Part shown: positions 357-63,778 of the stretch, one piece after another
How the letters are laid out: each line of letters begins with the position of its first letter
How positions within the stretch are numbered: position 1 is the first letter of the stretch
From: Alentia gelatinosa
Taxonomy: Eukaryota; Annelida; Polychaeta; Phyllodocida; Polynoidae
Reading direction: 5' to 3'
Assembly: GCA_950022655.1 (NCBI GenBank)
Contig: OX465579.1
Span: 78,131,193 to 78,195,192, forward strand
Length of the DNA: 64,000 nucleotides
Program-made: the position numbers and the translations under genes
Notes under the pieces: model-generated
Database searches by the model: none
Told to the model about the DNA's origin: nothing
What the model saw: the letters and a program-made list of their open reading frames with translations, nothing else

Positions 357-12101
<11,745 letters not shown>

Positions 12102-29330: not shown

Positions 29331-29574
29331 TTTAGTAGTATTGTATGCTTACCAGTCAGAAGCCTGAGGTGGTCTGTAATCCTGGGTCTGGAGAGGAGGA
29401 GCAACTGGCTCTACTTCTACACAAGACCAAGGCGCATTCTGGGGTCACACAGGGCTATAAGGTTTGCCCTAAGGGGTAGTTCCTCAGGTTCCCACATGGG
29501 TTCTCTACTGCCACTGACTCTCAATATACAACAATATTATACATGAACTATTTACACTTAATATTAACCCATTC

Positions 29575-30885
29575 ACGCCGTGTGATGCCTTGAAGGTGGG
29601 TTTGCTATTGCTTAAATGGTTTGAGAGTTACCTCACAGGGAGAAAATGTTATACAAAATACAATGGAGCATGTTCGGAGCAAGAAGATGTAGGTCTAGGA
29701 GTTCCTCAGGGTTCCATACTGGGCCCTCTGTTATTCCTAGTCTACATCAACGATCTCCCTGATAGTATTAAGGGATACGCAAATATCATGTACGCTGATG
29801 ATCTTGTGGTGATGGTAAGAGGTAAAACCCTGGAACAGGCAGAAAGAAATACACAACTAGTTATAAGGAGTCTTTATAATTGGTACACATCTAACAGGTT
29901 AACAATGAATCTGAAAAAAACTAAGATGGTGTACCACGGGCCGAAGACAAAGATAAAAAATTAACTAAGGGGAAATATTGTGATTAATGGATGTCAAATA
30001 ATGTGTTGTGAAGAAATAAATTACTTGGGAGCTATTATAGATAGTGATCTAAAATTTGGAAAACATGGGGAAAAATTATTGGGTATAATACAAAATAAGT
30101 GTAATATTTTTAGAAGACTTATGAAATTTATAAATAAGGAAAACGCCTTAAAGATAGCTAGAACTTGCCTGCTGCCCGTGGTAGACCACTGCTCGTTCCT
30201 AATAGAAGGCTCAAATGTTGTGGTCAAAGATAAGCTAAACAAGGGTATTTACAGGGGTTTGAGAATTGGATTGGGAAGGGAATCATATGAAGGGGACAGA
30301 TATATTAGCATAGTAGATTTATTAGATAAGTGTCATGTACAATGTCCTAAACTAAGGAGAAAGGTAGTACTTATGGGTATAATAAGGTCGCTAGTAGAGA
30401 TTAACGGCATACAAATGAAAAATGACGGTAGTGAACGAACGGGTCCACAAACAAGAACTGCAACTAAAAATAACATCTACTTACCAAGGCCTCATAAAAA
30501 AAATTCAAGAAGTCCAGCGTTTATAGCGGAATCATGACTTGGAACTCGTTACCCGCAGAGGTACAAATCACTTCCTCGAAGAAACTTTTTAAGTGAGATG
30601 TCATTAAGAAGTTAACAGAATAGTTTAAATCAACCCAGAAATGTGTGTCATTTGGTGTACTACCCTATATGTATTAGGATTAAGTCTTATAATTATGGTA
30701 TATTATCAGAGGACATATAGATAAGTATACCCATCGTATGGGTCTAATTGTATATATCATCTACCAAGTTTTTTGTTTGTTTGTCACATGTATCATTTTC
30801 ATGTTCTGTCACTTGTTGCTAGGAAGAACGATTGTAATAAATCGAAAGCAATAAAGACTACTTTAAAAAAAAAATTAAAAAAAGG
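29575..30885 (+). pseudogene. LINE 3' half: RT with YADD, C-terminal domain and poly(A) end
   Basis: Frame 29590-29964 continues in the same frame at 29980-30537 after an in-frame TAA at 29962. It shows [29 protein letters not shown], the catalytic YADDL, and the post-RT YLGAIID stretch. A +1 shift near 30531 leads to a TWNSLPAEVQ-like end at about 30620. The 3' UTR has AATAAA and AATAAAG words near 30836-30855 and ends in an A-rich tail (30863-30884). It has a different sequence from the minus-strand LINE at 24.6-26.5 kb. It starts mid-RT, so it is 5' truncated, next to the fragment at 28950-29330. Confidence 0.85.
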
Positions 30886-34614: not shown

Positions 34615-34813
34615 ATGGACAGTCTGTGGACGGCCGTGCGGATACTGGGGTTGGTCTTCCTGCTCCAGCCCACTCATGGCCGACCGCCGCAAGCGCCTCT
34701 CTCGGGCTGTGACGAAACTAAATTTGGGGTTCCACTGAGGTCTGCGTCTGGAGAGGTGCCGGTAGAAATCATGACGTCATCTTCCACTTTCACCGCCAAC
34801 TCCAAAATAACAG
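34615..34813 (+). CDS. Exon 1: signal peptide and start of Reeler domain
   Basis: ATG at 34615 opens MDSLWTAVRILGLVFLLQPT, a classic signal peptide with probable cleavage after THG. The following APLSGC, SGEVPVEI and STFTANSKITV correspond to the start of Reeler domains (first Cys, then the first beta strands). The donor GTGCTG begins at 34814 and leaves one base (G) of a Val codon completed at 38072. Reading on past the donor gives a stop soon after, so the open frame to 34848 is not the real end. Confidence 0.8.
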
Positions 34814-40800: not shown

Positions 40801-43800
40801 CCTATCTGAGTTATATACTTTGACCTCAGCACAGCTGCATGGACACCGACACTCTAATCGCACTGACTACAGGCCGTATATTTGCGGCCTCTTTTACCTC
40901 ATTGATGACACTCAGCATCTTTGAAGCAGTAGTCCTTTAGCAGATGGCAGTGGAAACCACACAATCTACATTGGTCATAACACTGCTGCCTATCACGCTG
41001 CACATAATGTTGTCTGTCACACTGCCCACAGTCCTGGGAGGTGTTTTATAGACAAGGTGTTGCATAGACCTGTTGAGTTGAAACGATCACTGATGGTATT
41101 TGGATGTAGCTTTGCCATACATGTTCAGGTAAGATAATTCAACTGTGAAACGGAAACGGTCACTATCCACAACCGTCACTACTATAAAACACCTCGCTGC
41201 CCATCAAGTCCGCTCTCATGCCACCCATTTTGCTACCCTTTTTGCTGCTGATGGTTGACATGCTTCATCTCACCGCCATTTCCCTTGTTGTCCTGGCTGA
41301 CAGTGGTAACTCATCAGCCAGGCATTTCCTCTTTGCAGTGTCAAAGTTTAGTTCACTGGTTGCCAGGTGATTCACCTGCGATTTATTCATTTTGTTTTTG
41401 AGACCAATTACAAGTTTGTCTTAAGAGCTTTGGTAAGAAAGGTAAAGAAGGTACAGGTTCCTGCCAAAGACCTTAGTCTTGCCAAATAAGAGGAAACATT
41501 CGATCACTCTTCCCCTGACAAGCAATCCAAAGTTTGTGCCTCTCAGCTATGACAATAGGGGTAGGCTTGAAGTGTGGCCTTGAGAAGGTCACAAGTCCTC
41601 AAATTGTATATCCCTGGGCTTTTCAGGTGAACAGGGGGTCGTTTTATTTTCAACTCTCCTGGGGACTCTCCTCGCCCAAGAGGGATAGCTCCATTGAGGA
41701 TAATTTTCAGGAGATCTCCTCAATCTCGTTCGATTTACCCTGTCCTCGGGAGGGAGAGAAATCCTCGGCCGAAGTCTCCTTTGAGAGAGCCCCAGGAGAA
41801 AATAAACCTGTAGGAGACTTTTGAGGAGACTTGAAAGAGAGGCTGTGTATACTGCAGGTGGTGGCACATAGTGGTATCTTTGGGAACTAATTTCATCATT
41901 TATGAATGTATGTTAATCTAAGTAAATGGCAAAGTAATTCTCCATCTGAGACCTCCAGTTTTAATTAAAATCATAATAAATATATTTCCGATAGTTCAAA
42001 TGAATTAAATAGCTTTTATTTATTATTTTGAATCACCCACGACACCCCTAGACGTGTCCCCAGCCAGGAGAGCTGCAGGACACTTTTCAGGAGCTCTCCT
42101 GGCCCCAGGATTGAAAATAAAACGATATTTCAGGAGACCTCCTAGAATCTGGCCCAAGACTCTCCTTCCCCGGGAGACTTTGAAATATCGAACGCAAACT
42201 GTCCTGGGACCTCTCCCCGGGCGCCCCAGGACTCCTCGGGCAGAAAATAAAACACCCCCCAGAGGTCTTTCACTAGCCTGTAGGTAGGAGGGCCTACCTG
42301 GGACACCTATCAGTGCACTCTATTGATCCTAGCAAGCAATCTTGACCCAGCACTCATCGCCAATTTTGTGTATTGATGCAGCAAATTAGATGAATGCTAT
42401 ATCTAGATTCAAACCAGATACCAGATGTCTTTATTTCCATATGTTTACACCAGGCGGCGGCCGCGAAATACAACATGATGGACGAAACGTCGATTTTAAT
42501 AAAAGCCTATCACTACTTGGATCAACCTGATAGTTTTTCACTCCTACAAATTGTAGAAAAAATAATAACAATTTCCATCATCAATGAAATATGGCTAAGC
42601 TTTTATATAATTACAAAAATCAAAACCTATCACATCTTCCTGATGCAATTTTATATATTCAAAAGTAGATTAAAATCATCCTTTACATATTTTAGGGGAG
42701 GAATCTCTCAGAACAATGGGACTAGCTGGCTCCCTATTAAATCAACTGTCATTCACCAAAAACTGAAACAGGTATGAAACTATGAAAATCCTTTCTATAT
42801 TGTTCTCAGCTGTTGTATGTGTCAGATTTAAAAGGTCAGCATAGTTAGGATATCAGGTCATTCCTGACAGTGTGCAACAGGTCACATGCTAGATGACCAC
42901 TGGTGATTAATTAAAACCTGCGAGGAAGCAAACTATCCATAACATGTTCTGCAATAGTCTCCAAATAGTATGCCAAAAAGATGTTTATTGAAAAGAAATG
43001 ACCTAAATTCGAGAATATTCAGAATTCTATACAATTCAACGATGCTCACCTGTGACGATAAATATCTCGGGCAAAGGTATTGAATAGCAACTGTGAAATT
43101 TCTCTTTGATTAATTTGTATTACTCTATATTTCTATTTCTTTTTCAGACAGTTTGTGAGGATAAAAACAACTGTTTCCGCTACCCTGATAACTGCGCTGA
43201 TAATGACTGTGAATATTTGGCTGGATGGAAAGTAGAAGGTGATTATGTCCGTTTCAGTGTATCAGGTGCAGTTACTGACACTCAGAAATATTTAGCTGTT
43301 GGATTTTCTACAACAGGCACAATGGTGAGTTTGCCCACACTTTCTACGCTGACATTTCTCTGCCCTAAAATGATGCTGCAATGTTAGATCCATCTCTGAC
43401 AGTTATTCATTTTAATTAAATCATATGCATTTTCTACATGCTTGAACCTCCAAAGTACTTTAGATAACAATTTTGTAGTACCAGCAAGTTGTTCATTGCA
43501 GTTTGTATATACTAAGCGAAACAAAAATATTATCATAATTACAATAAGATCATTTCCTGTCCACAATGTGAAAAGTGTTCATAGAATAATACTGAAGGTT
43601 CCATTTAATTACTTTTCACAAAAATATATGTTCCACTGAATGAGTTGAAAGATCAAGTCAATAATCAGTATGTTGATTTTTGTTGAAAGTCTGCTTCACC
43701 AGCTGTGGACTGCCTCCGTGATTCATCTGATGCTATTACCATCAAGTCTGCTGCAAATATAGACTACTCCACCGGCAATATTTTCCTTAATCCGGTAAGA

Positions 43801-46800
43801 TGCCCTCCATCTACAAAGTAATAAAAATTTCAAAATAACAGTGTTTGAAATCAAATCTATTTATAAAACACAAACATCATATTATTATATACCTGTGTTT
43901 AGTATATCCTACACATACGGCCCGCTCCTACCCATGTCGTATTTATATCTGTATGACACCTAGGTGACCAACGGGTTATGTATGTGGCATATAGGCCATG
44001 TACGGCAGCAAAATCCTAAAACTTGCCCAGAAGCAAAGTTAAAAATTGGATATTTTAAAGTAAATAATAATATGAAAACATGTATACTGTGTCTGTACGT
44101 GATAAATACTTCGTAAAATTGACGATAAGATGAACCTCTGCCTTTGGTATTGGTTTGTTTTATTGTAAATTTTACCGCCTATTTATCACATACAGGATGT
44201 ACACCCTTGCAGGGTTTTTTCTATCTTTGATGATTTTTCTCAAAGTTGCTTTTCTCAGTGAGTCATTCAATCAAACAAGTCCTGCTTTGCATAGTTGAAC
44301 ACTGTGTCATTATAGCTATTGTCAAAAAGCTTACATTGTTCACAATATCTCTTCTGATTTCAGCCATCTTTAGGACTTGGTTCTGACATGTCTGGAGAAT
44401 ACACTGATGGAAAGATAACATGCCATTTCTCATACATCAAGAGCAAGAATCTACAAAAACTGGTCAGTTCTAAACATCCCAGTAATGTTGGTGATGAAGA
44501 CCTTCTTGCTGATTTCCTGAATGTGAAATATTACCTGCTGGTTGCAAAGGGAGAAGTCACTGAAGAGGGTATGTTCAGCGAATAGACTTGATAGTTGATG
44601 ATTTGTATTGATATAGGTTAATTTCTCAAATTTGCATATACATGGCCCAAGATGTATGCATTTAAGACCAAAACAAAATGACTTTCAATACATTGCTGCA
44701 ATAAAAACAGCTTTGGATTCAGTTGCAATATAAGCCTCTTCAGGAATAGTATTTGGTTCTGCCAAATAAGGCATTTGCAGACATTACTAAAATGTCTTCC
44801 ATTTACAACTTCTGCATGTGTTCTTGTTTGATAGGAAATCCTACATACCATGGTCCTAACAAGGTGGTGAATCCCAAGCTGGTTAACTTTACTGCACAAG
44901 CAAGTGAAGCGGGGATTATCAAGGCTCATTTCAAAGCTACAGAGGTCAATGTACCCAGATCTGTGAGTATGTTGGACCAGAGATTTTGATATCAGAGCCC
45001 AAATTACTAGAACCTTATTTTTGCCTTCCTGCAGGACTCCCACCAAAACATTCACAAAAACTCAATGGGAATCTGCTAGTTACACCCTTTACTAGTGATG
45101 GTATACAAGGCACACCTAAACTCCTTCTCATCTTCCTTATGATAGTATTTAGTTTGACAATATCATGAATGAAAGTCAATACAATTGGAGCCATTCAGAA
45201 GTTCATAATTATAATCTAATGTAGAGGCCCATTTCGCAGGGAGAAGATATCATGATAAATTCATTCTTATGGCATTCAGAACTCCTTTTCTCTTATTTTT
45301 ACAGACAATTTGCCAGGATGAAAACAACTGTTTCCGCTACCCTGACAACTGCGCTGATAATGACTGTGAATATTTGGCTGGATGGAAAGTAGAAGGTGAT
45401 TATGTCCGTTTCAGTGTATCAGGTGCAGTTACTGACACTCAGAAATATTTAGCTGTTGGATTTTCTACAACAGGCACAATGGTGAGTTTGCCCACATTTT
45501 CTACACTGACATATCTCTGCCCTAAAATGATGCTGCAATGTTAGATCCATCTCTGACAGTTATTCATTTTAATTAGATCATATGCGTTTTCTACATGCTT
45601 GAACCCCCAAAGTTCTTTAGATGACAATTTTGTAGTGGCTCCTATAGTACCATCAAATTGTTCTTTGCAGTTTGTATATACTAAGCAAAACAAAAATATT
45701 ATCATAATTACAATAAGATTATTTCCTGTCCACAATGTGAAAAGTGTTCATAGATCAATACTGAAGGTTCCATTTAATTACTTTTCACAAAAATATATGT
45801 TCCACTGAATGAGTTGAAAGATCAAGTCAATAATCAGTATGTTGATTTTTGTTAAAAGTCTCCTTCACCAGCTGTGGACTGCCTCCGTGATTCATCTGAT
45901 GCTATTACCATCAAGTCTGCTGCAAATATAGACTACTCCACTGGCAATATTTTCCTTAATCCGGTAAGATGCCCTTCATCTACAAAATAATAAAGATTTC
46001 AAAATAACAGTGTTTGAAATCAAATCTATTTATAAAACACAAACATCATATTATTATATACCTGTGTTAGTATATCCTACACATACGGCCCGCTCCTACC
46101 CATGTCGTATTTATATCTGTATGACACCTAGGTGACCTATGGGTTACCTATGTGGCATATAGGCCATGTAAAGTAAATATTTTAAAGTAAATAATAATAT
46201 GAAAACAGGTATACTGTGTCTGTACGTGATAAATACTTGGTAAAATTGACGATAAAATGAACCTCTGCCTTTGGTATTGGTTTGTTTTATTGTAAATTTT
46301 ACCGCCTATTTATCACATACAGGATGTACACCCTTGCAGGGTTTTTTCTATCTTTGATGATTTTTCTCAAAGTTGCTTTTCTCAGTGAGTCATTCAATCA
46401 AGCAAGTCCTGCTTTGCATAGTTGAACACTGTGTCATTATAGCTATTGTCAAAAAGCTTACATTGTTCACAATATCTCTTCTGATTTCAGCCATCTTTAG
46501 GACTTGGTTCTGACATGTCTGGAGAATACACTGATGGAAAGATAACATGCCATTTCTCATACATCAAGAGCAAGAATCTACAAAAACTGGTCAGTTCTAA
46601 ACATCCCAGTAATGTTGGTGATGAAGACCTTCTTGCTGATTTCCTGAATGTGAAATATTACCTGCTGGTTGCAAAGGGAGAAGTCACTGAAGAGGGTATG
46701 TTCAGCGAATAGACTTGATAGTTGATGATTTGTATTGATATAGGTTAATTTCTCAAATTTGCATATACATGGCCCAAGATGTATGCATTTAAGACCAAAA

Positions 46801-49800
46801 CAAAATGACTTTCAATACATTGCTGCAATAAAAACAGCTTTGGATTCAATCGCAATCTAAGCCTCTTCGGGAATAGTATTTGGTACTGCCAAAAAAGGCA
46901 ATTGCAGACATTACTAAAATGTCTTCCATTTACAAATTCTGTATGTGTTCTTGTTTGATAGGAAATCCTACATACCATGGTCCTAACAAGGTGGTGAATC
47001 CCAAGCTGGTTAACTTTACTGCACAAGCAAGTGAAGCGGGGATTATCAAGGCTCATTTCAAAGCTACAGAGGTCAATGTACCCAGATCTGTGAGTATGTT
47101 GGACCAGAGATTTTGATATCAGAGCCCAAATTACTAGAACCTTATTTTTGCCTTCCTGCAGGACTCCCACCAAAACATTCACAAAAACTCAATGGGAATC
47201 TGCTAGTTACACCCTTTACTAGTGATGGTATACAAGGCACACCTAAACTCCTTCTCATCTTCCTTATGATAGTATTTAGTTTGACAATATCATGAATGAA
47301 AGTCAATATAATTGGAGCCATTCAGAAGTTCATAATTATAATCTAATGTAGAGGCCCATTTCGCAGGGAGCAGATATCATGATAAATTCATTCTTATGGC
47401 ATTCAGAACTCCTTTTCTCTTATTTTTACAGACAATTTGCCAGGATGAAAACAACTGTTTCCGCTACCCTGATAACTGCGCTGATAATGACTGTGAATAT
47501 TTGGCTGGATGGAAAGTAGAAGGTGATTATGTCCGTTTCAGTGTATCAGGTGCAGTTACTGACACTCAGAAATATTTAGCTGTTGGATTTTCTACAACAG
47601 GCACAATGGTGAGTTTGCCCACATTTTCTACACTGACATATCTCTGCCCTAAAATGATGCTGCAATGTTAGATCCATCTCTGACAGTTATTCATTTTAAT
47701 TAGATCATATGCGTTTTCTACATGCTTGAACCCCCAAAGTTCTTTAGATGACAATTTTGTAGTGGCTCCTATAGTACCATCAAATTGTTCTTTGCAGTTT
47801 GTATATACTAAGCAAAACAAAAATATTATCATAATTACAATAAGATTATTTCCTGTCCACAATGTAAAAAGTGTTCATAGATCAATACTGAAGGTTCCAT
47901 TTAATTACTTTTCACAAAAATATATGTTCCACTGAATGAGTTGAAAGATCAAGTCAATAATCAGTATGTTGATTTTTGTTAAAAGTCTCCTTCACCAGCT
48001 GTGGACTGCCTCCGTGATTCATCTGATGCTATTACCATCAAGTCTGCTGCAAATATAGACTACTCCACGGGCAATATTTTCCTTAATCCGGTAAGATGCC
48101 CTTCGTCTACAAAATAATAAAGATTTCAAAATAACAGTGTTTGAAATCAAATCTATTTATAAAACACAAACATCATATTATTATATACCTGTGTTAGTAT
48201 ATCCTACACATACGGCCCGCTCCTACCCATGTCGTATTTATATCTGTATGACACCTAGGTGACCTATGGGTTACCTATGTGGCATATAGGCCATGTAAAG
48301 TAAATATTTTAAAGTAAATAATAATATGAAAACAGGTATACTGTGTCTGTACGTGATAAATACTTGGTAAAATTGACGATAAAATGAACCTCTGCCTTTG
48401 GTATTGGTTTGTTTTATTGTAAATTTTACCGCCTATTTATCACATACAGGATGTACACCCTTGCAGGGTTTTTTCTATCTTTGATGATTTTTCTCAAAGT
48501 TGCTTTTCTCAGTGAGTCATTCAATCGAGCAAGTCCTGCTTTGCATAGTTGAACACTGTGTCATTATAGCTATTGTCAAAAAGCTTACATTGTTCACAAT
48601 ATCTTTTCTGATTTCAGCCATCTTTAGGACTTGGTTCTGACATGTCTGGAGAATACACTGATGGAAAGATAACATGCCATTTCTCATACATCAAGAGCAA
48701 GAATCTACAAAAACTGGTCAGTTCTAAACATCCCAGTAATGTTGGTGATGAAGACCTTCTTGCTGATTTCCTGAATGTGAAATATTACCTGCTGGTTGCA
48801 AAGGGAGAAGTCACTGAAGAGGGTATGTTCAGCGAATAGACTTGATAGTTGATGATTTGTATTGATATAGGTTAATTTCTCAAATTTGCATATACATGGC
48901 CCAAGATGTATGCATTTAAGACCAAAACAAAATGACTTTCAATACATTGCTGCAATAAAAACAGCTTTGGATTCAATCGCAATCTAAGCCTCTTCGGGAA
49001 TAGTATTTGGTACTGCCAAAAAAGGCAATTGCAGACATTACTAAAATGTCTTCCATTTACAAATTCTGTATGTGTTCTTGTTTGATAGGAAATCCTACAT
49101 ACCATGGTCCTAACAAGGTGGTGAATCCCAAGCTGGTTAACTTTACTGCACAAGCAAGTGAAGCGGGGATTATCAAGGCTCATTTCAAAGCTACAGAGGT
49201 CAATGTACCCAGATCTGTGAGTATGTTGGACCAGAGATTTTGATATCAGAGCCCAAATTACTAGAACCTTATTTTTGCCTTCCTGCAGGACTCCCACCAA
49301 AACATTCACAAAAACTCAATGGGAATCTGCTAGTTACACCCTTTACTAGTGATGGTATACAAGGCACACCTAAACTCCTTCTCATCTTCCTTATGATAGT
49401 ATTTAGTTTGACAATATCATGAATGAAAGTCAATATAATTGGAGCCATTCAGAAGTTCATAATTATAATCTAATGTAGAGGCCCATTTCGCAGGGAGCAG
49501 ATATCATGATAAATTCATTCTTATGGCATTCAGAACTCCTTTTCTCTTATTTTTACAGACAATTTGCCAGGATGAAAACAACTGTTTCCGCTACCCTGAT
49601 AACTGCGCTGATAATGACTGTGAATATTTGGCTGGATGGAAAGTAGAAGGTGATTATGTCCGTTTCAGTGTATCAGGTGCAGTTACTGACACTCAGAAAT
49701 ATTTAGCTGTTGGATTTTCTACAACAGGCACAATGGTGAGTTTGCCCACATTTTCTACACTGACATATCTCTGCCCTAAAATGATGCTGCAATGTTAGAT

Positions 49801-52800: not shown

Positions 52801-55800
52801 AGTTGAACACTGTGTCATTATAGCTATTGTCAAAAAGCTTACATTGTTCACAATATCTCTTCTGATTTCAGCCATCTTTAGGACTTGGTTCTGACATGTC
52901 TGGAGAATACACTGATGGAAAGATAACATGCCATTTCTCATACATCAAGAGCAAGAATCTACAAAAACTGGTCAGTTCTAAACATCCCAGTAATGTTGGT
53001 GATGAAGACCTTCTTGCTGATTTCCTGAATGTGAAATATTACCTGCTGGTTGCAAAGGGAGAAGTCACTGAAGAGGGTATGTTCAGCGAATAGACTTGAT
53101 AGTTGATGATTTGTATTGATATAGGTTAATTTCTCAAATTTGCATATACATGGCCCAAGATGTATGCATTTAAGACCAAAACAAAATGACTTTCAATACA
53201 TTGCTGCAATAAAAACAGCTTTGGATTCAATTGCAATCTAAGCCTCTTCGGGAATAGTATTTGGTACTGCCAAAAAAGGCATTTGCAGACATTACTAAAA
53301 TGTCTTCCATTTACAAATTCTGTATGTGTTCTTGTTTGATAGGAAATCCTACATACCATGGTCCTAACAAGGTGGTGAATCCCAAGCTGGTTAACTTTAC
53401 TGCACAAGCAAGTGAAGCGGGGATTATCAAGGCTCATTTCAAAGCTACAGAGGTCAATGTACCCAGATCTGTGAGTATGTTGGACCAGAGATTTTGATAT
53501 CAGAGCCCAAATTACTAGAACCTTATTTTTGCCTTCCTGCAGGACTCCCACCAAAACATTCAAAAAAACTCAATGGGAATCTGCTAGTTACACCCTTTAC
53601 TAGTGATGGTATACAAGGCACACCTAAACTGCTTCTCATCTTCCTTATGATAGTATTTAGTTTGACAATATCATGAATGAAAGTCAATACAATTGGAGCC
53701 ATTCAGAAGTTCATAATTATAATCTAATGTAGAGGCCCATTTCGCAGGGAGCAGATATCATGATAAATTCATTCTTATGGCATTCAGAACTCCTTTTCTC
53801 TTATTTTTACAGACAATTTGCCAGGATGAAAACAACTGTTTCCGCTACCCTGATAACTGCGCTGATAATGACTGTGAATATTTGGCTGGATGGAAAGTAG
53901 AAGGTGATTATGTCCGTTTCAGTGTATCAGGTGCAGTTACTGACACTCAGAAATATTTAGCTGTTGGATTTTCTACAACAGGCACAATGGTGAGTTTGCC
54001 CACATTTTCTACACTGACATATCTCTGCCCTAAAATGATGCTGCAGTGTTAGATCCATCTCTGACAGTTATTCATTTGAATTAGATCATATGTGTTTTCT
54101 ACATGCTTGAACCCCCAAAGGTCTTTAGATGACAATTTTGTAGTGGCTCCTATAGTACCATCAAATTGTTCTTTGCAGTTTGTATATACTAAGCAAAACA
54201 AAAATATTATCATAATTACAATAAGATTATTTCCTGTCCACAATGTGAAAAGTGTTCATAGATCAATACTGAAGGTTCCATTTAATTACTTTTCACAAAA
54301 ATATATGTTCCACTGAATGAGTTGAAAGATCAAGTCAATAATCAGTATGTTGATTTTTGTTAAAAGTCTCCTTCACCAGCTGTGGACTGCCTCCGTGATT
54401 CATCTGATGCTATTACCATCAAGTCTGCTGCAAATATAGACTACTCCACTGGCAATATTTTCCTTAATCCGGTAAGATGCCCTTCATCTACAAAATAATA
54501 AAGATTTCAAAATAACAGTGTTTGAAATCAAATCTATTTATAAAACACAAACATCATATTATTATATACCTGTGTTAGTATATCCTACACATACGGCCCG
54601 CTCCTACCCATGTCGTATTTATATCTGTATGACACCTAGGTGACCTATGGGTTACCTATGTGGCATATAGGCCATGTAAAGTAAATATTTTAAAGTAAAT
54701 AATAATATGAAAACAGGTATACTGTGTCTGTACGTGATAAATACTTGGTAAAATTGACGATAAAATGAACCTCTGCCTTTGGTATTGGTTTGTTTTATTG
54801 TAAATTTTACCGCCTATTTATCACATACAGGATGTACACCCTTGCAGGGTTTTTTCTATCTTTGATGATTTTTCTCAAAGTTGCTTTTCTCAGTGAGTCA
54901 TTCAATCGAGCAAGTCCTGCTTTGCATAGTTGAACACTGTGTCATTATAGCTATTGTCAAAAAGCTTACATTGTTCACAATATCTTTTCTGATTTCAGCC
55001 ATCTTTAGGACTTGGTTCTGACATGTCTGGAGAATACACTGATGGAAAGATAACATGCCATTTCTCATACATCAAGAGCAAGAATCTACAAAAACTGGTC
55101 AGTTCTAAACATCCCAGTAATGTTGGTGATGAAGACCTTCTTGCTGATTTCCTGAATGTGAAATATTACCTGCTGGTTGCAAAGGGAGAAGTCACTGAAG
55201 AGGGTATGTTCAGCGAATAGACTTGATAGTTGATGATTTGTATTGATATAGGTTAATTTCTCAAATTTGCATATACATGGCCCAAGATGTATGCATTTAA
55301 GACCAAAACAAAATGACTTTCAATACATTGCTGCAATAAAAACAGCTTTGGATTCAGTTGCAATCTAAGCCTCTTCGGGAATAGTATTTGGTACTGCCAA
55401 ATAAGGCATTTGCAGACAATACTAAAATGTCTTCCATTTACAAATTCTGTATGTGTTCTTGTTTGATAGGAAATCCTACATACCATGGTCCTAACAAGGT
55501 GGTGAATCCCAAGCTGGTTAACTTTACTGCACAAGCAAGTGAAGTGGGGATTATCAAGGCTCATTTCAAAGCTACAGAGGTCAATGTACCCAGATCTGTG
55601 AGTATGTTGGACCAGAGATTTTGATATCAGAGCCCAAATTACTAGAACCTTATTTTTGCCTTCCTGCAGGACTCCCACCAAAACATTCAAAAAAACTCAA
55701 TGGGAATCTGCTAGTTACACCCTTTACTAGTGATGGTATACAAGGCACACCTAAACTCCTTCTCATCTTCCTTATGATAGTATTTAGTTTGACAATATCA

Positions 55801-58800
55801 TGAATGAAAGTCAATACAATTGGAGCCATTCAGAAGTTCATAATTATAATCTAATGTAGAGGCCCATTTCGCAGGGAGCAGATATCATGATAAATTCATT
55901 CTTATGGCATTCAGAACTCCTTTTCTCTTATTTTTACAGACAATTTGCCAGGATGAAAACAACTGTTTCCGCTACCCTGATAACTGCGCTGATAATGACT
56001 GTGAATATTTGGCTGGATGGAAAGTAGAAGGTGATTATGTCCGTTTCAGTGTATCAGGTGCAGTTACTGACACTCAGAAATATTTAGCTGTTGGATTTTC
56101 TACAACAGGCACAATGGTGAGTTTGCCCACATTTTCTACACTGACATATCTCTGCCCTAAAATGATGCTGCAGTGTTAGATCCATCTCTGACAGTTATTC
56201 ATTTGAATTAGATCATATGTGTTTTCTACATGCTTGAACCCCCAAAGTTCTTTAGATGACAATTTTGTAGTGGCTCCTATAGTACCATCAAATTGTTCTT
56301 TGCAGTTTGTATATACTAGTTAAGCAAAACAAAAATATTATCATAATTACAATAAGATTATTTCCTGTCCACAATGTGAAAAGTGTTCATAGATCAATAC
56401 TGAGGGTTCCATTTAATTACTTTTCACAAAAATATATGTTTCACTGAATGAGTTGAAAGATCAAGTCAATAATCAGTATGTTGATTTTTGTTAAAAGTCT
56501 CCTTCACCAGCTGTGGACTGCCTCCGTGATTCATCTGATGCTATTACCATCAAGTCTGCTGCAAATATAGACTACTCCACTGGCAATATTTTCCTTAATC
56601 CGGTAAGATGCCCTTCATCTACAAAGTAATAAAGATTTCAAAATAACAGTGTTTGAAATCAAATCTATTTATAAAACACAAACATCATATTATTATATAC
56701 CTGTGTTAGTATATCCTACACATACGGCCCGCTCCTACCCATGTCGTATTTATATCTGTATGACACCTAGGTGACCTACGGGTTATCTATGTGGCATATA
56801 GGCCATGTAAAGTAAATATTTTAAAGTAAATAATAATATGAAAACAGGTATACTGTGTCTGTACGTGATAAATACTTGGTAAAATTGACGATAAAATGAA
56901 CCTCTGCCTTTGGTATTGGTTTGTTTTATTGTAAATTTTACTGCCTATTTATCACATACAGGATGTACACCCTTGCAGGGTTTTTTCTATCTTTGATAAG
57001 TTTCTCAAAGTTGCTTTTCTCAGTGAGTCATTCAATCAAACAAGTCCTGCTTTGCATAGTTGAACACTGTGTCATTGTTCCCAACTCGTTGGGTTTAATG
57101 TGCGCGGGAGGGATTTCTCCACTCTCCCCCCACCGAACACTCTCCATACACCGGACTTCCCCACGTGACTACCTCTCCACCACGTGACTCGCCGCAAAAC
57201 CAACGGACTCGGGAAATATTACTCCTCCCGTCTTCTCCAATTATCTCCGGACTTACCAAACACCCTACATCCAACATGGGTAAACAGAAGTCTACTAGCC
57301 CCAAGAACACCCGGGCGGTTAAAAGGAGGAAGACGGCCTCGGCTCTCGACGAGGATTCCGGAGTGGAGGCACGAGTTGCTCGCATGGAGGTGGGTGTACA
57401 GTCCATCCTCCATCACCTAGGACTGTCCGTTGGGGGTCACTCGGTCACTGGGTCAACGGGCCCCGCAGCCGCCGCATCTCGCCCGGGGTCGCCCCCCGTC
57501 ACGACCACCGCCCTGGCCTCGGTCGGTCAGCAACACCCCGCCACGAATGAGGTCAACGGGCCTAGATTAGCTCCACGACCTGAACATCAACAAACAACCG
57601 CTGCGGACCACGCCCCCCGCACGATCGCCGAGCCGGCCCTCGGTCACTACCACCACTGGGCACACAACACAACCGAGGACCAGGTTCAACGACTCCTCCG
57701 TCAGCAACACTTCCATCAACAAGGTAATAACCGCACTTTCCTACATGAATTCATTACTAGAGGGAGGAAGCACGAATGAACCTCCCTCGGCACACTCACT
57801 ATGGGCGAGTACTTCTTCGGTTTCCTCCGTCTGTTAGACGACCCCGACACAACTCCGGCGGACCGCCCTTATATGAATGCCCACCTCCGAGACATCGCGG
57901 AGGATGCAAAGGACTTCGCATGGGCCGGCGTCCGGAGCTTCTCGGAGGAGGTACTCGCTCAAATCGCGGAACGCAGACTCCGGTGGGCGGACGAGGTCCG
58001 GATCCAGATAATGAGGGTTGGCATCGCACGAGTAGCTACCGCCCGCCTCGATTCCGGATCCTCCCATAACCCGTCAAGGCGTCCTAAACCAACCGAGGTC
58101 CCCGACACCCCCTGCCCGGCATATAACGCCGAGGCCGGGTGCCCTAAAACCGAGGGCCACGTCATCGCAGGAAAACCCGTCGGGCACTTCTGCAAAAACG
58201 ACCTCGGCCTCGTACACCGCCACGCCGAGGCCGCCTGCAGAATAAAAGCCCGCGCCGAGGCCGACCCCGCGTCCTTTCGGAAGTAGGCCAGGAACCCCTG
58301 GCCGAAAACCGGAAGTCCGCACCGCCCCTCCGCCCGAGGGATTCACGATCATCGCCACGCCCAACGACAATTCGCCCGCCCGCCAAGCACCCGATAACGC
58401 CCACGACACCACACGGGCAACACCCACTCCTAGGCATGACCACGCCCCCTCGCCTACAACCTCGACGGCCACCGCCCCCCTCGCACCGGAGGTCCCCGAT
58501 AGCACATCCGGACCCCGCACCGCCCCGGATAACCCCGCAGAACTCACATCCCTAGCCGAGGACGGCACCCTAGTAGCCCCCCCGGCACGGAAGGAACTCG
58601 TCCCGAGAACACCCGGAGTTTACTCAAAGACCCTCGCTAAATTCTGGCCCACGCCAGACCCTGAACTTCGCCAAGGCAACGAACTTTACTACCACGCGTA
58701 CGAACAAACTCGTGCCACCTGCCTGCCGAATAGACTCGGGGCGAGGATCTCGCTCCCCTCTGACCTCCATATCCATGTCTGGAGGGAACGCCTCGCCGAC

Positions 58801-61800
58801 TACCACGACTTAGCGGTATGCGACTACCTCGAGTTCGGTTGGCCAATAGGCTTCCTCGGGGACAAACCCCCCACCCCGAACGCCCAGAACCACACCTCCG
58901 CCCTCGCCAACATCGCCCAAATCGACGCATTCATCGAAACCGAACTCGCCCACGGGGCCCTCCTCGGCCCCTTCATACGCCCTCCCTTCGTGCCCTGGTC
59001 GCACACATCACCCCTGCTGACCAGGGACAAGAAGGACTCCTCAACCAGGCGAGTCATCATCGACCTCTCGTTCCCTCAGAACGAGAGTGTAAACGCCTAC
59101 ACACTACCCAACGTGAGGGAGGGTGTCCTCGTCAAATACACCCTCCCATCCATCAACGACCTCAAAACCCTCGGCAGGGGCGCGCTCGTCTGGAAGGCTG
59201 ACCTCTCCTGAGCTTACAGACAGCTCCGGATCGACCCCCTCGACCTTCCATTACTAGGATTCCGGCACCGGAACGAGTTCTACCTCGACATCTGCCCTAG
59301 CTTCGGGGCCAGACTCTCCGGCGCTGCCTGCCAGAGATTCACCAACGCAATGGTCTACCTACACAGGTCGGAGGGGGCGTGGTCCCTCGCCTACCTAGAC
59401 GATTTCGCGGGGGCCGAGGCCACCAGCGCTGAGGCCGACGCCACTTACCGTGAATTCATCTCCCTCGCCGACGATCTGGGAGTTAAACTCGCTCCAAAGA
59501 AGTGCCAGCCCCCCACCACCCAAATGGAATGGCTGGGCTATGAAATAGACACTGAGGCCATGACTATCGCGATTCCTCAGGAGAAAATGACCGACCTTGC
59601 GGAACGCTTGGCCTCGTGGCTCACACGCCAAACTGCTACGAGGTCAGAGCTCCGGTCCATTGTCGGCCGCCTCGTCTACGTAGCTCAATGCGTCCCTCAC
59701 GCCAGGCGGTTCACGAACCGCCTCATCGCCCTCATGAAAACCGCTCAAGCCTCGGGCCATGTCCACCTCACCACCGAGGCCCGTCTCGACCTCCCCTGGT
59801 TCCGCCAGTACGCCCACGCCTCCAACGGCGTCGCCATATACGCCCCCTCCAGGAACCGCATACATGTCACTAACGCCCTCGCCACCTCCGCGGTGGCAGT
59901 CGCATTTCTCAATCGCCCCGGAGGCCCTCACCGAGGCCACCGGAGCGACGGCGCGACCCCAACTCCTGGCCGCCCTCGTAGTTCTAGCGGCCGCCACTTT
60001 CGCTCCCCTCGTCCCTCGGGGCTCGGAGATCGTCGTCTCGACCACACACGCGACGGTGGCGGCAGATCTCCAAAAGGGCGCCGGAAGAGACCCCGTCACG
60101 GCCGCCTGCGGTTGTGCCAAACGACATATACCCTCGTCGCCCGCCAGGCGCGGGCCTCTCTCCAAGCCTCGGTCGCCCCCTCGACCTCCTTCAACAGGAC
60201 CAGACAGGCCCGCCTCTACCTCACCTTCTGCGTGGACAATGCAGTTCCTCATCTCTCACCCTCGCCCGCGCAGGTCGCCCTCTTTTGCCAATACCTGGCA
60301 AACTGCCTCCCGGCCCCGGCCTCGCGCAGGAACTACGCCTCTGGCGCGAGAGCCTGGGTCGGCCTCGCGGGAGGGGACACTTCCTCCTTCTCGTCTCCCC
60401 TCGCCCTCGCAGTGGCAAAGGGAGCGGACAACCTCTCCGCGCACGTCCCTTCCTGTGCGCCTCCGCTCCTCCCGGCCGACATCCTCGGGATCTCGGCCTA
60501 CCTCGACAGAGCGAGATCTCCTGGACTCGCTCTGAAGGCGGCCCTCCTCCTCGGATATTTCGCCCTCCTCAGGGCCTCCAACATGGTGCCCACGAAGGGA
60601 CCAGGAAGACCGGGGCACCACGCCCTCAGGCAGGAGGACGTCGTTTCCTCCCCCACAGGTCTCATTGTTCTCGTACACTCCACCAAGACGAGGACCTCCT
60701 CGGAGCCTCCGCTACCTCTAGCGGTCCCCGAGGTCCGAGGCTCCCCAGCTTGCCCGAAATCAGCGTGGCTCGCCTACACACACGCCTTTCCTGCGCCGCC
60801 GACGTCTTTCGCCTTCTTGGACCCCTCCGGCGTGCCTCTCACCGCCCAGGGCCTCACCTCTGTCCTCCGAGCTGCCCTGGCCTCCTTCTCCTCACCCAGG
60901 GCAACCTCGGCCTCCCTCCACTCTCTCCGGAGAGGAGGCGCTCAACAAGCTGCTCTCCACGGAGCTTCGGACGAGGCCCTCCTACACCATGGAACCTGGA
61001 CTAGTGTCACCTCCCTTAGGGCTTACGTCCCAGCCGACCCCTCCAAGGAAGTGGCCTTGGCCTTGACCTCGGCCTTTGGCATTTCTTATAGTTAAAGACA
61101 CTCTACACCTCAACTATACACCTCCTTACTCAATAAACGTCTCATTTCCAAATCCCTCTTTGCGTCATCATTGTTCCCAACTCGTTGGGTTTAATGTGCG
61201 CGGGAGGGATTTCTCCACTCTCCCCCCACCGAACACTCTCCATACACCAGACTTCCCCACGTGACTACCTCTCTACCACGTGACTTGCCGCAAAACCAAC
61301 GGACTTGGGAAATATTACCTCCCACCCACCCCACAAAAACTTTAAACTCTTCTCCCTCCCTCATCCTTCACTCGAGGCTTTCTTATAGTTAAAGACACTC
61401 TACACCTCAACTATACACCTCCTTACTCAATAAACGTCTCATTTCCAAATCCCTCTTTGCGTCATCATTATAGCTATTGTCAAAAAGCTTACATTGTTCA
61501 CAATATCTCTTCTGATTTCAGCCATCTTTAGGACTTGATTCTGACATGTCTGGAGAATACACTGATGGAAAGATCACATGCCATTTCTCATACATCAAGA
61601 GCAAGAATCTACAAAAACTGGTCAGTTCTAAACATCCCAGTAATGTTGGTGATGAAGACCTTCTTGCTGATTTCCTGAATGTGAAATATTACCTGCTGGT
61701 TGCAAAGGGAGAAGTCACTGAAGAGGGTATGTTCAGCGAATAGACTTGATAGTTGATGATTTGTATTGATATAGGTTAATTTCTCAAATTTGCATATACA

Positions 61801-63778
61801 TGGCCCAAGATGTATGCATTTAAGACCAAAACAAAATGACTTTCAATACATTGCTGCAATAAAAACAGCTTTGGATTCAGTTGCAATATAAGCCTCTTCA
61901 GGAATAGTATTTGGTTCTGCCAAATAAGGCATTTGCAGACATTACTAAAATGTCTTCCATTTACAACTTCTGTATGTGTTCTTGTTTGATAGGAAATCCT
62001 ACATACCATGGTCCTAACAAGGTGGTGAATCCCAAGCTGGTTAACTTTACTGCACAAGCAAGTGAAGCGGGGATTATCAAGGCTCATTTCAAAGCTACAG
62101 AGGTCAATGTACCCAGATCTGTGAGTATGTTGGACCAGAGATTTTGATATCAGAGCCCAAATTACTAGAACCTTATTTTTGCCTTCCTGCAGGACTTCCA
62201 CCAAAGCATTCACAAAAACTCAATGGGAATCTGCTAGTTACACCCTTTACTATTGATGGTATACAAGGCACACCTAAACTCCTTCTCATCTTCCTTATGA
62301 TAGTATTTAGTTTGACAATATCATGAATGAAAGTCAATGCAATTGGAGCCATTCAGAAGTTCATAATTATAATCTAATGTAGAGGCCCATTTCGCAGGGA
62401 GCAGATATCATGATAAATTCATTCTTATGGCATTCAGAACTCCTTTTCTCTTATTTTTACAGACAATTTGCCAGGATGAAAACAACTGTTTCCGCTACCC
62501 TGATAACTGCGCTGATAATGACTGTGAATATTTGGCTGGATGGAAAGTAGAAGGTGATTATGTCCGTTTCAGTGTATCAGGTGCAGTTACTGACACTCAG
62601 AAATATTTAGCTGTTGGATTTTCTACAACAGGCACAATGGTGAGTTTGCCCACATTTTCTACACTGACATGTCTCTGCCCTAAAATGATGCTGCAATGTT
62701 AGATCCATCTCTGACAGTTATTCATTTTAATTAGATCATATGCGTTTTCTACATGCTTGAACCCCCAAAGTTCTTTAGATGACAATTTTGTAGTGGCTCC
62801 TATAGTACCATCAAATTGTTCTTTGCAGTTTGTATATACTAAGCAAAACAAAAATATTATCATAATTACAATAAGATTATTTCCTGTCCACAATGTGAAA
62901 AGTGTTCATAGATCAATACTGAAGGTTCCATTTAATTACTTTTCACAAAAATATATGAGTTGAAAGATCAAGTCAATAATCAGTATGTTGATTTTTGTTA
63001 AAAGTCTCCTTCACCAGCTGTGGACTGCCTCCGTGATTCATCTGATGCTATTACCATCAAGTCTGCTGCAAATATAGACTACTCCACTGGCAATATTTTC
63101 CTTAATCCGGTAAGATGCCCTTCATCTACAAAGTAATAAAAATTTCAAAATAACAGTGTTTGAAATCAAATCTATTTATAAAGTTTTCACAAACATCATA
63201 TTATTATATACCTGTGTTAGTATATCCTACACATACGGCCCGCTCCTACCCATGTCGTATTTATATCTGTATGACACCTAGGTGACCTACGGGTTATGTA
63301 TGTGGCATGTAGGGCATGTACGGTGGCAAAATCCGAAAACTTGCCCAGAAGCAAAGTTAAAAATTGGATAGTTTAAAGTATATAATAATAATTTATCACA
63401 TACAGGATGAACACCCTTGCAGGGTTTTTTCTATCTTTGATGATTTTTCTCAAAGTTGCTTTTCTCAGTGAGTCATTCAATCAAACAAGTCCTGCTTTGC
63501 ATAGTTGAACACTGTGTCATTATAGCTATTGTCAAAAAGCTTACATTGTTCACAATGTCTCTTCTGATTTCAGCCATCTTTAGGACTTGGTTCTGACATG
63601 TCTGGAGAATACACTGATGGAAAGATAACATGCCATTTCTCATACATCAAGAGCAAGAATCTACAAAAACTGGTCAGTTCTCAACACCCCAGTAATGTTG
63701 GTGATGAAGACCTTCTTGCTGATTTCCTGAATGTGAAATATTACCTGCTGGTTGCAAAGGGAGAAGTCACTGAAGAGG
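34615..63778 (+). CDS. Reeler-DOMON-array protein gene, 5' part
   Basis: Spliced gene covering a signal peptide, a Reeler domain start and eight tandem DOMON units. Secure exons are 34615-34813 and 38072-38214, then four exons (A-D) per unit from 43148 on, ending in the window with exon C of unit 8. Reeler plus DOMON is the architecture of FRRS1/SDR2-type ferric-chelate reductases, which have one DOMON and then a cytochrome b561 core. Here the DOMON part is repeated at least eight times. DOMON domains bind heme or sugar outside the cell. Exons for the second half of the Reeler domain are unsure (see 38974 and 42696). Whether a b561 membrane core follows cannot be seen. All A-D blocks start and end in phase 0, so unit number can change without a frameshift. 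Confidence 0.8.
34862..35791. mobile_element. TIR element 50 bp after exon 1
   Basis: Left tip TCAGAGGAGGTGTGAAGCG with CAGCGCCC, mirrored at the right by GGGCGCTACGCTTCACACC then TCCTCTGA. Arms of about 26 bases have one mismatch. The 930-bp body has no coding capacity and contains a small tandem repeat at 35518-35580. Flanks TTA and GTA do not give a clean duplication, so the superfamily is open. Confidence 0.7.
35518..35580. repeat. Short tandem repeat AGAGTAAAAATAGATAC
   Basis: Three and a half units of 16-19 bases (AGTAAAGATAGATACAG, AGTAAAAATAGATACACAG and so on) inside the TIR element. Confidence 0.75.
36213..36545. repeat. Tandem palindrome cluster AATGCCTGNAGGCATT
   Basis: Three head-to-tail units of about 35 bases, GGGGGCGAAAATGCCTGCAGG-like, lie at 36211-36310. 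A mirrored unit (GAATGCCTGAAGGCATTCTC then GCCCCC) lies near 36468-36495. The same 16-base palindrome occurs in the TTAA-flanked MITE at 26521, and the right side here ends GAAAGGGCTAATTAGTTAA. Likely a decayed relative of that element. Confidence 0.6.
37080..37223 (+). pseudogene. LINE C-terminal relic
   Basis: A 47-codon frame ending in TAA reads SALYIGSQYWNKLKSETQKK and then a Lys/Leu-rich helix. The G-S-x-x-W-N-x-L pattern is the usual far C-terminal end of non-LTR retrotransposon ORF2. No RT core remains upstream. Confidence 0.5.
38072..38214 (+). CDS. Exon 2: Reeler domain middle
   Basis: Acceptor TTCCTGCAG and donor GTCAGT. The first two bases complete Val, giving VTIRGKDGVTFDGFWMEARP and later GVFSDAP and RLMC. 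This is the standard Reeler core: a G-x-x-F-x-G-F-x-x-E-A-R block, then a Gly/Phe turn and the second Cys. It ends in phase 0 (DK). Confidence 0.85.
38288..38684. mobile_element. MITE with TTTCCACC tips in the Reeler gene intron
   Basis: Left tip TGTCTGTTTCCACCAGTCGAC; right tip, inverted, GGCTATTTCCACCTACTGAC. Flanks TAA and TTA fit a Harbinger-type TWA duplication. The body contains words such as AAAATCGCCGATCAAATTG. A similar but unclear TIR-like pair follows at about 38735-38930 (TGTCCCACTTG against GGTGGTGCCACA). Confidence 0.55.
38974..39253 (+). CDS. Candidate Reeler exon with unresolved frame
   Basis: After a strong acceptor (TTTTTTTGTTTCCACAG, ending 38973) a frame reads HISMKQVRKSSLQM and later SVAPSEDGETRQNCIVFVAS, VLQHQ, ending at a GTGAGT donor at 39254. 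Both parts resemble the third Reeler block (S-H-x-S ... A-P-S ... F-x-A-S-V-x-Q). Exon 2 ends in phase 0, whereas this frame needs one preceding base from a phase-2 exon, and frame 0 stops after seven codons. A hairpin (TTTACTACATACCA mirrored) sits between the two parts, suggesting an insertion. It may be a damaged exon or an incomplete model. Confidence 0.3.
39818..42363 (-). pseudogene. Decayed, internally deleted Ty3/gypsy retrotransposon
   Basis: Read on the minus strand: a gag-like stretch near 41420-41260 (DKLVIGLKNKMNKSQ), a Cys/His zinc-knuckle-like region near 41060-40915, an aspartic protease at 40863-40480 with the DSGAS active-site motif and a later LLGRDLI motif after a stop, then at 40333-39965 a Pro-rich frame ending TRAGHIMKMPKLMDL, as gypsy integrase tails do. 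Reverse transcriptase, RNase H and the integrase core are missing between 40480 and 40333. A purine tract precedes TGTGTTATGG at about 39870, a likely 3' LTR start. CATCAATACAC near 39830 recurs at 42365, next to an ATTGGCGATGAG typical of the region after the 5' LTR. Not functional. Confidence 0.7.
41632..42262. mobile_element. MITE nested in the gypsy remnant
   Basis: Inverted tips GGGGGTCGTTTTATTTTC and GGGGGGTGTTTTATTTTC. Subterminal sequence is rich in CAGGAGA/TCTCCTG and CCCCAGGAC words in both orientations, flanking an AT-rich centre. It lies within the gag side of the gypsy remnant, so it probably inserted later. Confidence 0.6.
42696..42771 (+). CDS. Candidate linker exon before DOMON unit 1
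   Basis: Acceptor TTTACATATTTTAG and donor GTATGA. In the frame that ends in phase 0 it reads GGISQNNGTSWLPIKSTVIH and QKLKQ, joining smoothly to the phase-0 exon A of unit 1. Such a linker is expected between Reeler and DOMON domains. It needs a phase-2 exon upstream, which was not found, so support is partial. Confidence 0.35.
43148..44962 (+). CDS. DOMON unit 1
   Basis: Exons A 43148-43324, B 43690-43794, C 44364-44568, D 44835-44962 with GT-AG borders and phases 0, 0, 1, 0; 205 residues. Domain landmarks: Cys at 3, 9, 16 and 21, LAGWKVEGDYVRFSVSG (first DOMON strands), YLAVGFSTTGTM, a DC/TC Cys pair (67 and 114), YLLVAKG and TYHGPN. Met59 and His168 sit where DOMON heme ligands usually are. 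It is the most diverged unit: TVCEDKN instead of TICQDEN at the start, and SASP instead of SPSP in exon B. Intron B-C keeps a segment of about 49 bp (44002-44050) lost from units 2-7. Confidence 0.85.
45305..47089 (+). CDS. DOMON unit 2
   Basis: Exons A 45305-45481, B 45859-45963, C 46491-46695, D 46962-47089. Introns are 377, 527 and 266 bp inside the unit and 342 bp to the next. It opens TICQDENNCFRYPDNC, and its 205-residue product is identical to that of units 3, 4 and 5. It is the first member of the series with the exact 2127-bp period and the first without the B-C intron segment kept in unit 1. Confidence 0.9.
47432..49216 (+). CDS. DOMON unit 3
   Basis: Exons A 47432-47608, B 47986-48090, C 48618-48822, D 49089-49216. 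Shares private silent or intronic changes with unit 4 only, for example ACGGGC in exon B and AATGTAAAAAGTG in intron A-B, so the two are sister duplicates. It shares AAGGCAATTGCAG before exon D with unit 2. Confidence 0.9.
49559..51343 (+). CDS. DOMON unit 4
   Basis: Exons A 49559-49735, B 50113-50217, C 50745-50949, D 51216-51343. Exon and intron sequence are almost identical to unit 3 up to exon C. Before exon D it switches to AAGGCATTTGCAG as in unit 5, which suggests an exchange or duplication border between C and D. Confidence 0.9.
51686..53470 (+). CDS. DOMON unit 5
   Basis: Exons A 51686-51862, B 52240-52344, C 52872-53076, D 53343-53470. Shares AAAGGTCTTTAG and CATATGTGTTTT in intron A-B with unit 6. 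After exon D it has CATTCAAAAAAACTC, again shared with unit 6. Confidence 0.9.
53813..55597 (+). CDS. DOMON unit 6
   Basis: Exons A 53813-53989, B 54367-54471, C 54999-55203, D 55470-55597. One residue change in exon D (SEVGIIK instead of SEAGIIK, base near 55544). Intron A-B shares ATTCATTTGAATTAG with unit 7. Confidence 0.9.
55940..62120 (+). CDS. DOMON unit 7, split by a retrotransposon
   Basis: Exons A 55940-56116, B 56498-56602, C 61522-61726, D 61993-62120. A 4-bp insertion (GTTA, near 56320) shifts exon B. The B-C intron holds a 4393-bp Ngaro-like element (57076-61468) ending 53 bp before the exon C acceptor, whose pyrimidine tract is intact. Exon C has one residue change (GLDSD instead of GLGSD). 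Intron C-D matches unit 1 rather than units 2-6 (CAATATAAGCCTCTTCAGG, then TTTGGTTCTGCC), so the unit is mosaic. Confidence 0.85.
57076..57222 (+). repeat. Split direct repeat A1
   Basis: 147 bp starting TGTTCCCAACTCGTTGGG. It matches A2 (61172-61318) with four differences, all C/T or G/A, two of them CG to TG. It contains two CACGTGAC words and is the probable promoter side. Confidence 0.9.
57276..58286 (+). pseudogene. Ngaro-like ORF1 (gag-like), one internal stop
   Basis: Frame from the ATG at 57276 (MGKQKSTSPKN) runs to TGA at 57777-57779 and continues in the same frame to TAG at 58284-58286, about 336 codons. The N-terminal part is basic, then Ala/Pro/Thr-rich. The C-terminal part has a Cys/His cluster (C-x7-C-x5-H, HFC, H-x-H, AAC) like the zinc-finger region of DIRS/Ngaro gag proteins. 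The stop follows GAA and is one C-to-T change from CGA, so CpG decay is likely. A start at 57165 upstream in the same frame is also possible. Confidence 0.75.
58246..61095 (+). pseudogene. Ngaro-like pol: RT, RNase H, tyrosine recombinase
   Basis: Open from 58246 (+1 relative to ORF1, overlapping it by about 40 bases) to the TAA at 61093, with one in-frame TGA at 59209. There is no early ATG, so frameshifting from ORF1 is likely. RT: IIDLSFP near 59055, KADLS then AYRQLRIDP around the TGA, and the catalytic YLDDF near 59393. RNase H-like sequence at about 59870-60115 is readable only partly in the main frame (see findings). Recombinase: FALLRASN (first Arg) near 60565, STKTR (Lys), HSLRRGG (His-x-x-Arg) near 60920, HHGTW near 60985 and AYVP (Tyr nucleophile) near 61023, so all catalytic positions are present. 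No methylase domain is seen, which favours Ngaro over DIRS1. Confidence 0.85.
61082..61171 (+). repeat. Split direct repeat B1
   Basis: 90 bp starting TTTCTTATAGTTAAAGACAC and ending GCGTCATCAT. I see no difference from B2 (61379-61468). It overlaps the end of pol and carries AATAAA at 61132-61137. Confidence 0.9.
61172..61318 (+). repeat. Split direct repeat A2
   Basis: 147 bp, directly abutting B1. The B1-A2 joint GTCATCAT|TGTTCCC is the same as would form in a circular intermediate that joins the element ends. Confidence 0.9.
61379..61468 (+). repeat. Split direct repeat B2 (right end)
   Basis: 90 bp identical to B1, separated from A2 by 60 bp of unique pyrimidine-rich sequence. It carries AATAAA at 61429-61434. 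The host intron resumes at 61469 with TATAGCTATTG. Confidence 0.9.
62463..63778 (+). CDS. DOMON unit 8, partial at the window edge
   Basis: Exons A 62463-62639, B 63005-63109, C 63574-63778. Exon D lies outside. Exon C has SSQHPSN instead of SSKHPSN. Intron B-C keeps the segment of about 49 bp (63321-63369) otherwise found only in unit 1, but lacks a neighbouring stretch of about 100 bp. After the exon C donor the sequence (ATGTTCAGCATATGGC) departs from all other units at 63789, so the array ends or changes here. Confidence 0.85.

Follow-up and report, generated by a model that had tools for sequence, protein, structure and literature searches.

The genome of the polychaete Alentia gelatinosa carries a predicted gene in which, as assembled, eleven DOMONs are strung together between a Reeler-like start and a cytochrome b561 core, and the predicted protein is a CYBDOM (FRRS1/SDR2/CG8399-type), filed as such by its architecture. 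CYBDOM proteins are regarded as bridging, in a single step, cytosolic ascorbate and an acceptor outside the cell. We consider it probable (roughly 60%) that this one is a membrane-anchored, multi-heme redox protein with up to 13 hemes. The predicted gene structure is well supported, and the function is inferred. The gene was found in a stretch of 64,000 nucleotides (hereafter the window; C1:78131193-78195192), and its features are listed below, coordinates above 64000 continuing the numbering of the window rightward.

34615..34813, plus strand: exon R1, with start codon, signal-like hydrophobic stretch (by eye) and Reeler-like start; ends in phase 1 at a GT donor
38072..38214, plus strand: exon R2 of the Reeler-like module; in phase with R1, ends in phase 0
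39133..39253, plus strand: candidate third Reeler exon; ends in phase 0 at GTGAGT, start ambiguous; outside the model
43148..44962, plus strand: DOMON unit 1 (exons 43148-43324, 43690-43794, 44364-44568 and 44835-44962)
45305..47089, plus strand: DOMON unit 2
47432..49216, plus strand: DOMON unit 3, protein as unit 2
49559..51343, plus strand: DOMON unit 4, protein as unit 2
51686..53470, plus strand: DOMON unit 5, protein as unit 2
53813..55597, plus strand: DOMON unit 6
55940..62120, plus strand: DOMON unit 7, with a retroelement inside its B-C intron
57077..61469, plus strand: 4.4-kb retroelement with split direct repeats (D19, D20), in the B-C intron of unit 7
62463..63778, plus strand: exons A, B and C of DOMON unit 8
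64029-64156: exon D8, the last exon of unit 8, 29-156 bases right of the window
64262-66760: DOMON unit 9
67028-69451: DOMON unit 10
70676-75818: DOMON unit 11
76738-76853, 77188-77274, 79852-79920 and 80224-80323: b561 exons T1-T4
around 81750: candidate fifth-helix exon; outside the model

Across 43148-63778 the window holds eight tandem four-exon units (A-B-C-D), each encoding a DOMON unit of 205 residues. Exons A, B, C and D measure 177, 105, 205 and 128 nt, which sum to 615 nt or 205 codons, and have phases 0-0, 0-0, 0-1 and 1-0. Exons A, B and C are present in eight copies each and exon D in seven, and all 31 of these window exons are preceded by AG, followed by GT, free of stops and intact in phase, which bears out the claim of a first-pass annotation of this DNA that there are at least eight such units with correct splice phases. 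Counted on exon C, the start-to-start spacing of the direct repeats is 2127 bp five times in succession, then 6523 and 2052. Units 2-5 encode identical proteins; relative to unit 2, one residue is changed in unit 6 (A188V), in unit 7 (G100D) and in the visible part of unit 8 (K131Q). The annotation had likewise given units 2-5 as identical and the later units as differing by one residue each, but this single-residue difference does not hold for unit 8 as a whole, which is 91% identical to unit 2 because exon D8 has diverged. Unit 1 differs from unit 2 at four residues, and units 2-7 differ from unit 1 at 4-5. Units 1, 8 (with D8), 9, 10 and 11, those scanned against the Pfam DOMON profile (PF03351, cut-off 32.7 bits), score 41.7, 42.1, 44.3, 43 and 55.1 bits, unit 1 with an E of 1.5e-10; the profile search that had been proposed as a check on the 205-residue unit thus finds DOMON similarity.

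Reading 40 kb to the right of the window added the missing last exon of unit 8 (D8), three further, diverged DOMON units and the b561 core. The resulting predicted model has 50 exons, all with AG/GT (R1 being without an acceptor) and consistent phases, and 2452 codons with no stop; with its 11 DOMONs it starts at 34615 and reaches at least 16.3 kb past the right end of the window. The first-pass annotation had placed the array at 43148..63778, where the eight units do lie, although the gene is wider on both sides; its idea of a single Reeler/DOMON/b561-type gene that carries a DOMON array finds support and is extended by three more DOMONs and by the C-terminal module it had suggested looking for on the right. 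That module, the b561 core (PF03188), scores 30.8 bits against a cut-off of 23, and its fifth helix would come from the candidate exon around 81750, which matches the Mytilus and scallop C-terminus with an E of 1.1e-4 and fits in phase by eye. The four heme-histidine sites of the core, QAHG, IHQ, SAHP and NWAH, match, also by eye, KVHA, QIHR, PAHP and NWAH of Mytilus.

At the other end of the gene, the open frame of R2 alone scores 16.9 bits against the Reeler profile (PF02014, cut-off 21), and an approximate R1+R2 join, two joint residues of which differ from the final model, scores 20.6 bits. The score rises to 31.5 and 32.3 bits when two versions of the candidate third exon are added to R1+R2, and to 29.5 bits when another peptide from downstream (about 42.7 kb) takes its place. 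An HMM made from two Mytilus Reelers gave no significant match (R1, E 0.67; R2, E 8.5). A search for an intervening Reeler exon gave 16 candidates, of which the one left after filtering was not believed.

The relatives of this gene came to light with long queries: a single unit compared with 5.8 billion proteins gave 85 candidates and no match. Units 10-11 plus the b561 core matched four Mytilus ferric-chelate reductase 1 proteins (P0001-P0004), the sole matches among 4437 candidates (36-39% identity, E 4e-52 to 3e-54). These share with the array gene the order of domains (Reeler, or in the array gene a Reeler-like module, then DOMON and b561), the DOMON Met and His and, by eye, the b561 histidines, but P0001 has one DOMON stretch against the 11 of Alentia gelatinosa, eight of them near identical. 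The long model found one match among 5455 candidates, an uncharacterized protein of Argopecten irradians (P0005, 1588 aa; E 5e-126, 28% identity over 99% of the searched region). This predicted protein has seven DOMON stretches followed by b561 motifs, its b561 match of 19.3 bits lying below the cut-off of 23 with the histidine motifs present by eye. It resembles the array gene in its several DOMONs, though the isoform lacks a Reeler match and its units 2-6 are mutually 62-92% identical. In a 19-row tree (midpoint root, long-branch warnings, three rows identical to W2 left out) the Alentia gelatinosa units form one clade (100/99) and the scallop units another (83/84), so placed that the two arrays are likely separate expansions. 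PDB sequences yielded no match to the DOMON unit or to unit 11 joined to b561, and a human FRRS1 DOMON found there a single unrelated chain at an E of 0.28. A structure model of the Mytilus relative P0003 (four rows) had a mean pLDDT of 35.9, was too poor and was discarded.

What the DOMONs of these proteins have in common is a pair of putative heme ligands. In PMC10691727, one Met and one His are described as universal in the CYBDOM DOMONs of that study and as probable heme ligands, matching those of cellobiose dehydrogenase. The corresponding Met59 and His168 are invariant in all 22 DOMON rows that we aligned, including 11/11 units of the Alentia gelatinosa gene; these rows (11 Alentia gelatinosa units, seven from scallop and four from Mytilus, the human FRRS1 row of alignment A3 being excluded) are not independent, since units 1-8 are near copies of one another, as are the four Mytilus rows. 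Sixteen columns are identical in 22/22 rows, among them both ligand positions, Trp27 and Cys 16, 21, 67 and 114. Within the two multi-DOMON proteins both ligand positions are kept in 18/18 units, down to 27% identity within one protein. The ligands may have been kept for more than heme: according to an excerpt of PMC10784544, a single M90L or H174L change in the plant protein HYP1 impaired its membrane localisation, and ligand conservation may therefore also reflect folding.

A second motif behaves differently. SXDXXMGXD is the proposed but unproven CYBDOM iron site, reported in PMC10691727 as conserved. It is whole in 4/4 Mytilus rows and broken in 7/7 scallop and 11/11 Alentia gelatinosa units. 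The Ser and the Met are present in 11/11 units of the latter and the Asp before the Met in 2/11 (units 9 and 10), and both the Gly and the Asp that follow the Met are lost (0/11); in scallop the Asp before the Met is found in 5/7 units and the following Gly and Asp in 0/7. With the motif broken in all units, ferric reduction at each of them is unlikely, and it is for this reason that we file the protein as a CYBDOM by architecture and not as a ferric reductase. Neither array resembles a row of ferric reductase sites, which argues for a relay, storage or structural role. The scallop array, probably independent, shows the same two traits, with ligands kept and iron-site motif broken.

The history of the array can be read from its variable sites. 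Among the eight units, 12/615 exon and 71/1553 intron sites vary (p=0.004); the exon-intron difference is strongest for unit 8 against unit 2 (3/487 exon and 50/825 intron sites, p=1e-7), is seen in unit 1 (p=0.024) and unit 7 (p=0.035) against unit 2, and is not significant for units 3-6 against unit 2. The test assumes independent sites and the units are related, so that it serves as a guide, and gene conversion limited to exons would leave a similar pattern. Similarity begins close to the exon A1 acceptor and stops about 11 bases past exon C8; the edge units diverge at their outer ends, in exons A1 and D8, as unequal crossing-over predicts. Units 9 and 10 form a second pair, 85% identical, and units 9-11 are clearly distinct. 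These patterns fit old duplications under constraint followed by a recent amplification of the middle.

Such an amplification could have been near-neutral, units 1-8 having been added without new function to an ancestor with few DOMONs, and the spacing of exactly 2127 bp, the divergence of the edge units at their outer ends and the small distance of units 3-6 from unit 2 (4 to 13 of 1512 intron sites) all speak for it. We regard this as possible but on balance doubtful: no copy in the window has acquired a stop, a frameshift or a lost splice site despite intron change of up to 6% and a 4.4-kb insertion, and the seven-DOMON protein of scallop is probably a separate gain. An overcount of near-identical copies by the assembler is very improbable. 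Units 3 and 4 are indeed identical in the left block and without a private variant in the listed patterns, but they differ at four right-block sites, units 1, 2, 5, 6, 7 and 8 each have private variants, unit 7 bears the large insertion, unit 8 is shortened and units 9-11 are distinct; moreover, a search of the whole assembly (1.23 Gb, 101 contigs) gave eight matches to exon C, all at the array locus and none on other contigs. That the units might belong to several genes, or be spliced alternatively so that one or a few enter each mRNA, is suggested by the phase 0 at all unit borders, since skipping a whole unit would keep the frame. It is nevertheless unlikely, as the search, which covered all but short first exons in introns, found a single Reeler-like start, upstream of the array, a single b561 core, downstream of it, and no further copy of either between the units; the scallop record, itself a prediction, is likewise a single protein with seven DOMONs.

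The reading that we prefer is of a CYBDOM transcribed with its whole array as one mRNA. The array would have grown by repeated unequal crossing-over of the four-exon unit and, because units start and end in phase 0, any whole number of them keeps the frame, so that the protein can change in length by one 205-residue unit at a time. The product would be a plasma-membrane protein with a secreted Reeler-like module, then the eleven DOMONs and then the b561 core. Most likely, Met59 and His168 of each DOMON hold one b-type heme between them, and these eleven hemes, together with two in b561 by analogy, would give the total of up to 13. Electrons from cytosolic ascorbate would cross the membrane by way of b561 and reach unit 11, the DOMON nearest the membrane, as has been proposed for CYBDOMs with a single DOMON. 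From there the outer DOMONs could hand them on or store them, taking reducing power a long way into the extracellular matrix or the space where shell forms.

The same protein might instead be a structural or adhesive chain, in the sense of the fibre-like chain suggested by the first-pass annotation: a long extracellular component of, for example, shell or another matrix in which any heme is stabilising or vestigial. Excerpts of PMC6003135 describe a Reeler+DOMON ferric-chelate-reductase-like protein as very abundant in acid-insoluble abalone nacre, and the regular units with their conserved cysteines, the Thr/Ser/Pro-rich linkers of units 9 and 10 and the iron-site motif broken in every row of both arrays would suit such a role. 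The retention of both ligand positions at identities as low as 27% and a b561 core that has kept its histidines at the end of the protein are harder to reconcile with it, and we judge it rather unlikely; the sequence speaks more for redox than for fibre.

The eleven DOMONs with kept ligands raise the testable question of whether an animal protein can conduct or store electrons over many extracellular b hemes. Bacterial multi-heme cytochrome chains place many hemes on one extracellular path, with c-type hemes and unrelated folds, and we claim no homology to them. The conservation of the ligands allows a bold, testable prediction. A further-reaching reading is an animal extracellular electron chain of at most 13 b hemes in one polypeptide, fed by cytosolic ascorbate via b561 and running along the eleven DOMONs into the matrix, with a length set by tandem copy number and an origin at least twice; we put this forward tentatively, as a long shot.

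For HYP1, a CYBDOM with DOMON and b561 like the array gene, passages of PMC10784544 describe ascorbate-dependent transmembrane electron transport and reduction of Fe(III) and Cu(II), place in a model a DOMON heme bound by Met and His at 20.9 A from that of b561, and propose an electron path of two b561 hemes and one DOMON heme; the protein differs from our case in having one DOMON, and these passages mention no Reeler. The cytochrome domain of cellobiose dehydrogenase is alike in its Met/His-ligated b heme and DOMON-like fold (PMC10691727, as excerpted), but is a single domain on a fungal enzyme. Among the matches listed from open-licence PMC papers, no DOMON run as long as this one was found, and the highest count described is two, in PMC10691727, where two DOMONs occur in 19/888 insect CYBDOM hits. 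The annotation's statement that so long a run is undescribed accordingly stands for those papers, but at least one array protein, the Argopecten irradians prediction with seven DOMONs, is already in databases as uncharacterized. In infected clam tissue, according to a passage of PMC4769524, transcripts of ferric-chelate reductase increase; neither this nor the nacre passage (PMC6003135) mentions a DOMON array.

Elsewhere in the assembly, the search with unit 11 plus b561 (E up to 0.01, counts being lower bounds) found eleven DOMON first exons at the array locus and a single one each at C7:41.36 Mb, C1:46.01 Mb, C1:152.13 Mb, C3:76.32 Mb and C4:24.55 Mb. A search with the Pfam DOMON profile gave 28 exon matches, nine at the array locus and the rest including loci beyond those of the first search. 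Three of the DOMON exon matches lie at C1:166210800-166219060 (L013, L014) in the profile order 41-102, 2-44 and 62-117, an arrangement that would allow for more than one DOMON at this locus (C1:166.21 Mb).

The element in the B-C intron of unit 7 we take to be DIRS/Ngaro-like from its anatomy. Its long frame contains an interrupting stop, and its matches to RVT_1 (28.3 bits) and Phage_integrase (13.6 bits) lie below the cut-offs of 29.6 and 27.1. No clear target duplication was found at its flanks, where CATT stands on both sides and may be the element's own end. The flanking splice sites are intact, and its GC content is 0.54-0.63 in 2-kb windows against about 0.36 in the array. Pfam scans of 135 open frames (91 on the plus strand of at least 60 residues and 40 on the minus strand of at least 80, both sets ending left of 43200, and four of the retroelement) gave four RVT_1 matches, one of them at 59212-61095; the best matches other than Reeler and reverse transcriptase were Importin_rep_3 (3.7e-7), HNF-1A_C (9.1e-5), PH_32 (1.6e-4) and DUF3915 (2.2e-4). 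The Importin_rep_3 (importin 13 repeat) match belongs to one of the 44 frames on the minus strand left of 43200 or in the retroelement.

Apart from the one in the retroelement, these reverse-transcriptase-like frames lie at 29518-30534 (plus strand, placed by eye) and on the minus strand left of 43200; 40555-40866 on the minus strand weakly resembles an aspartyl protease (16.7 bits against a cut-off of 24.3). Rfam and tRNA scans gave no matches. Open frames at 41620-42280 and about 71070-71860, in two introns of the array gene, share peptides and look like a dispersed repeat. An 81-bp tandem unit at 3104-4248 (14.2 copies, 94% matches) is open in several minus-strand frames, and at 7401-7538 and 8441-8475 the 17-mer ACCCCGCTTAAGGGGAC is repeated, together with a shifted form, adjoining TA/TC runs.
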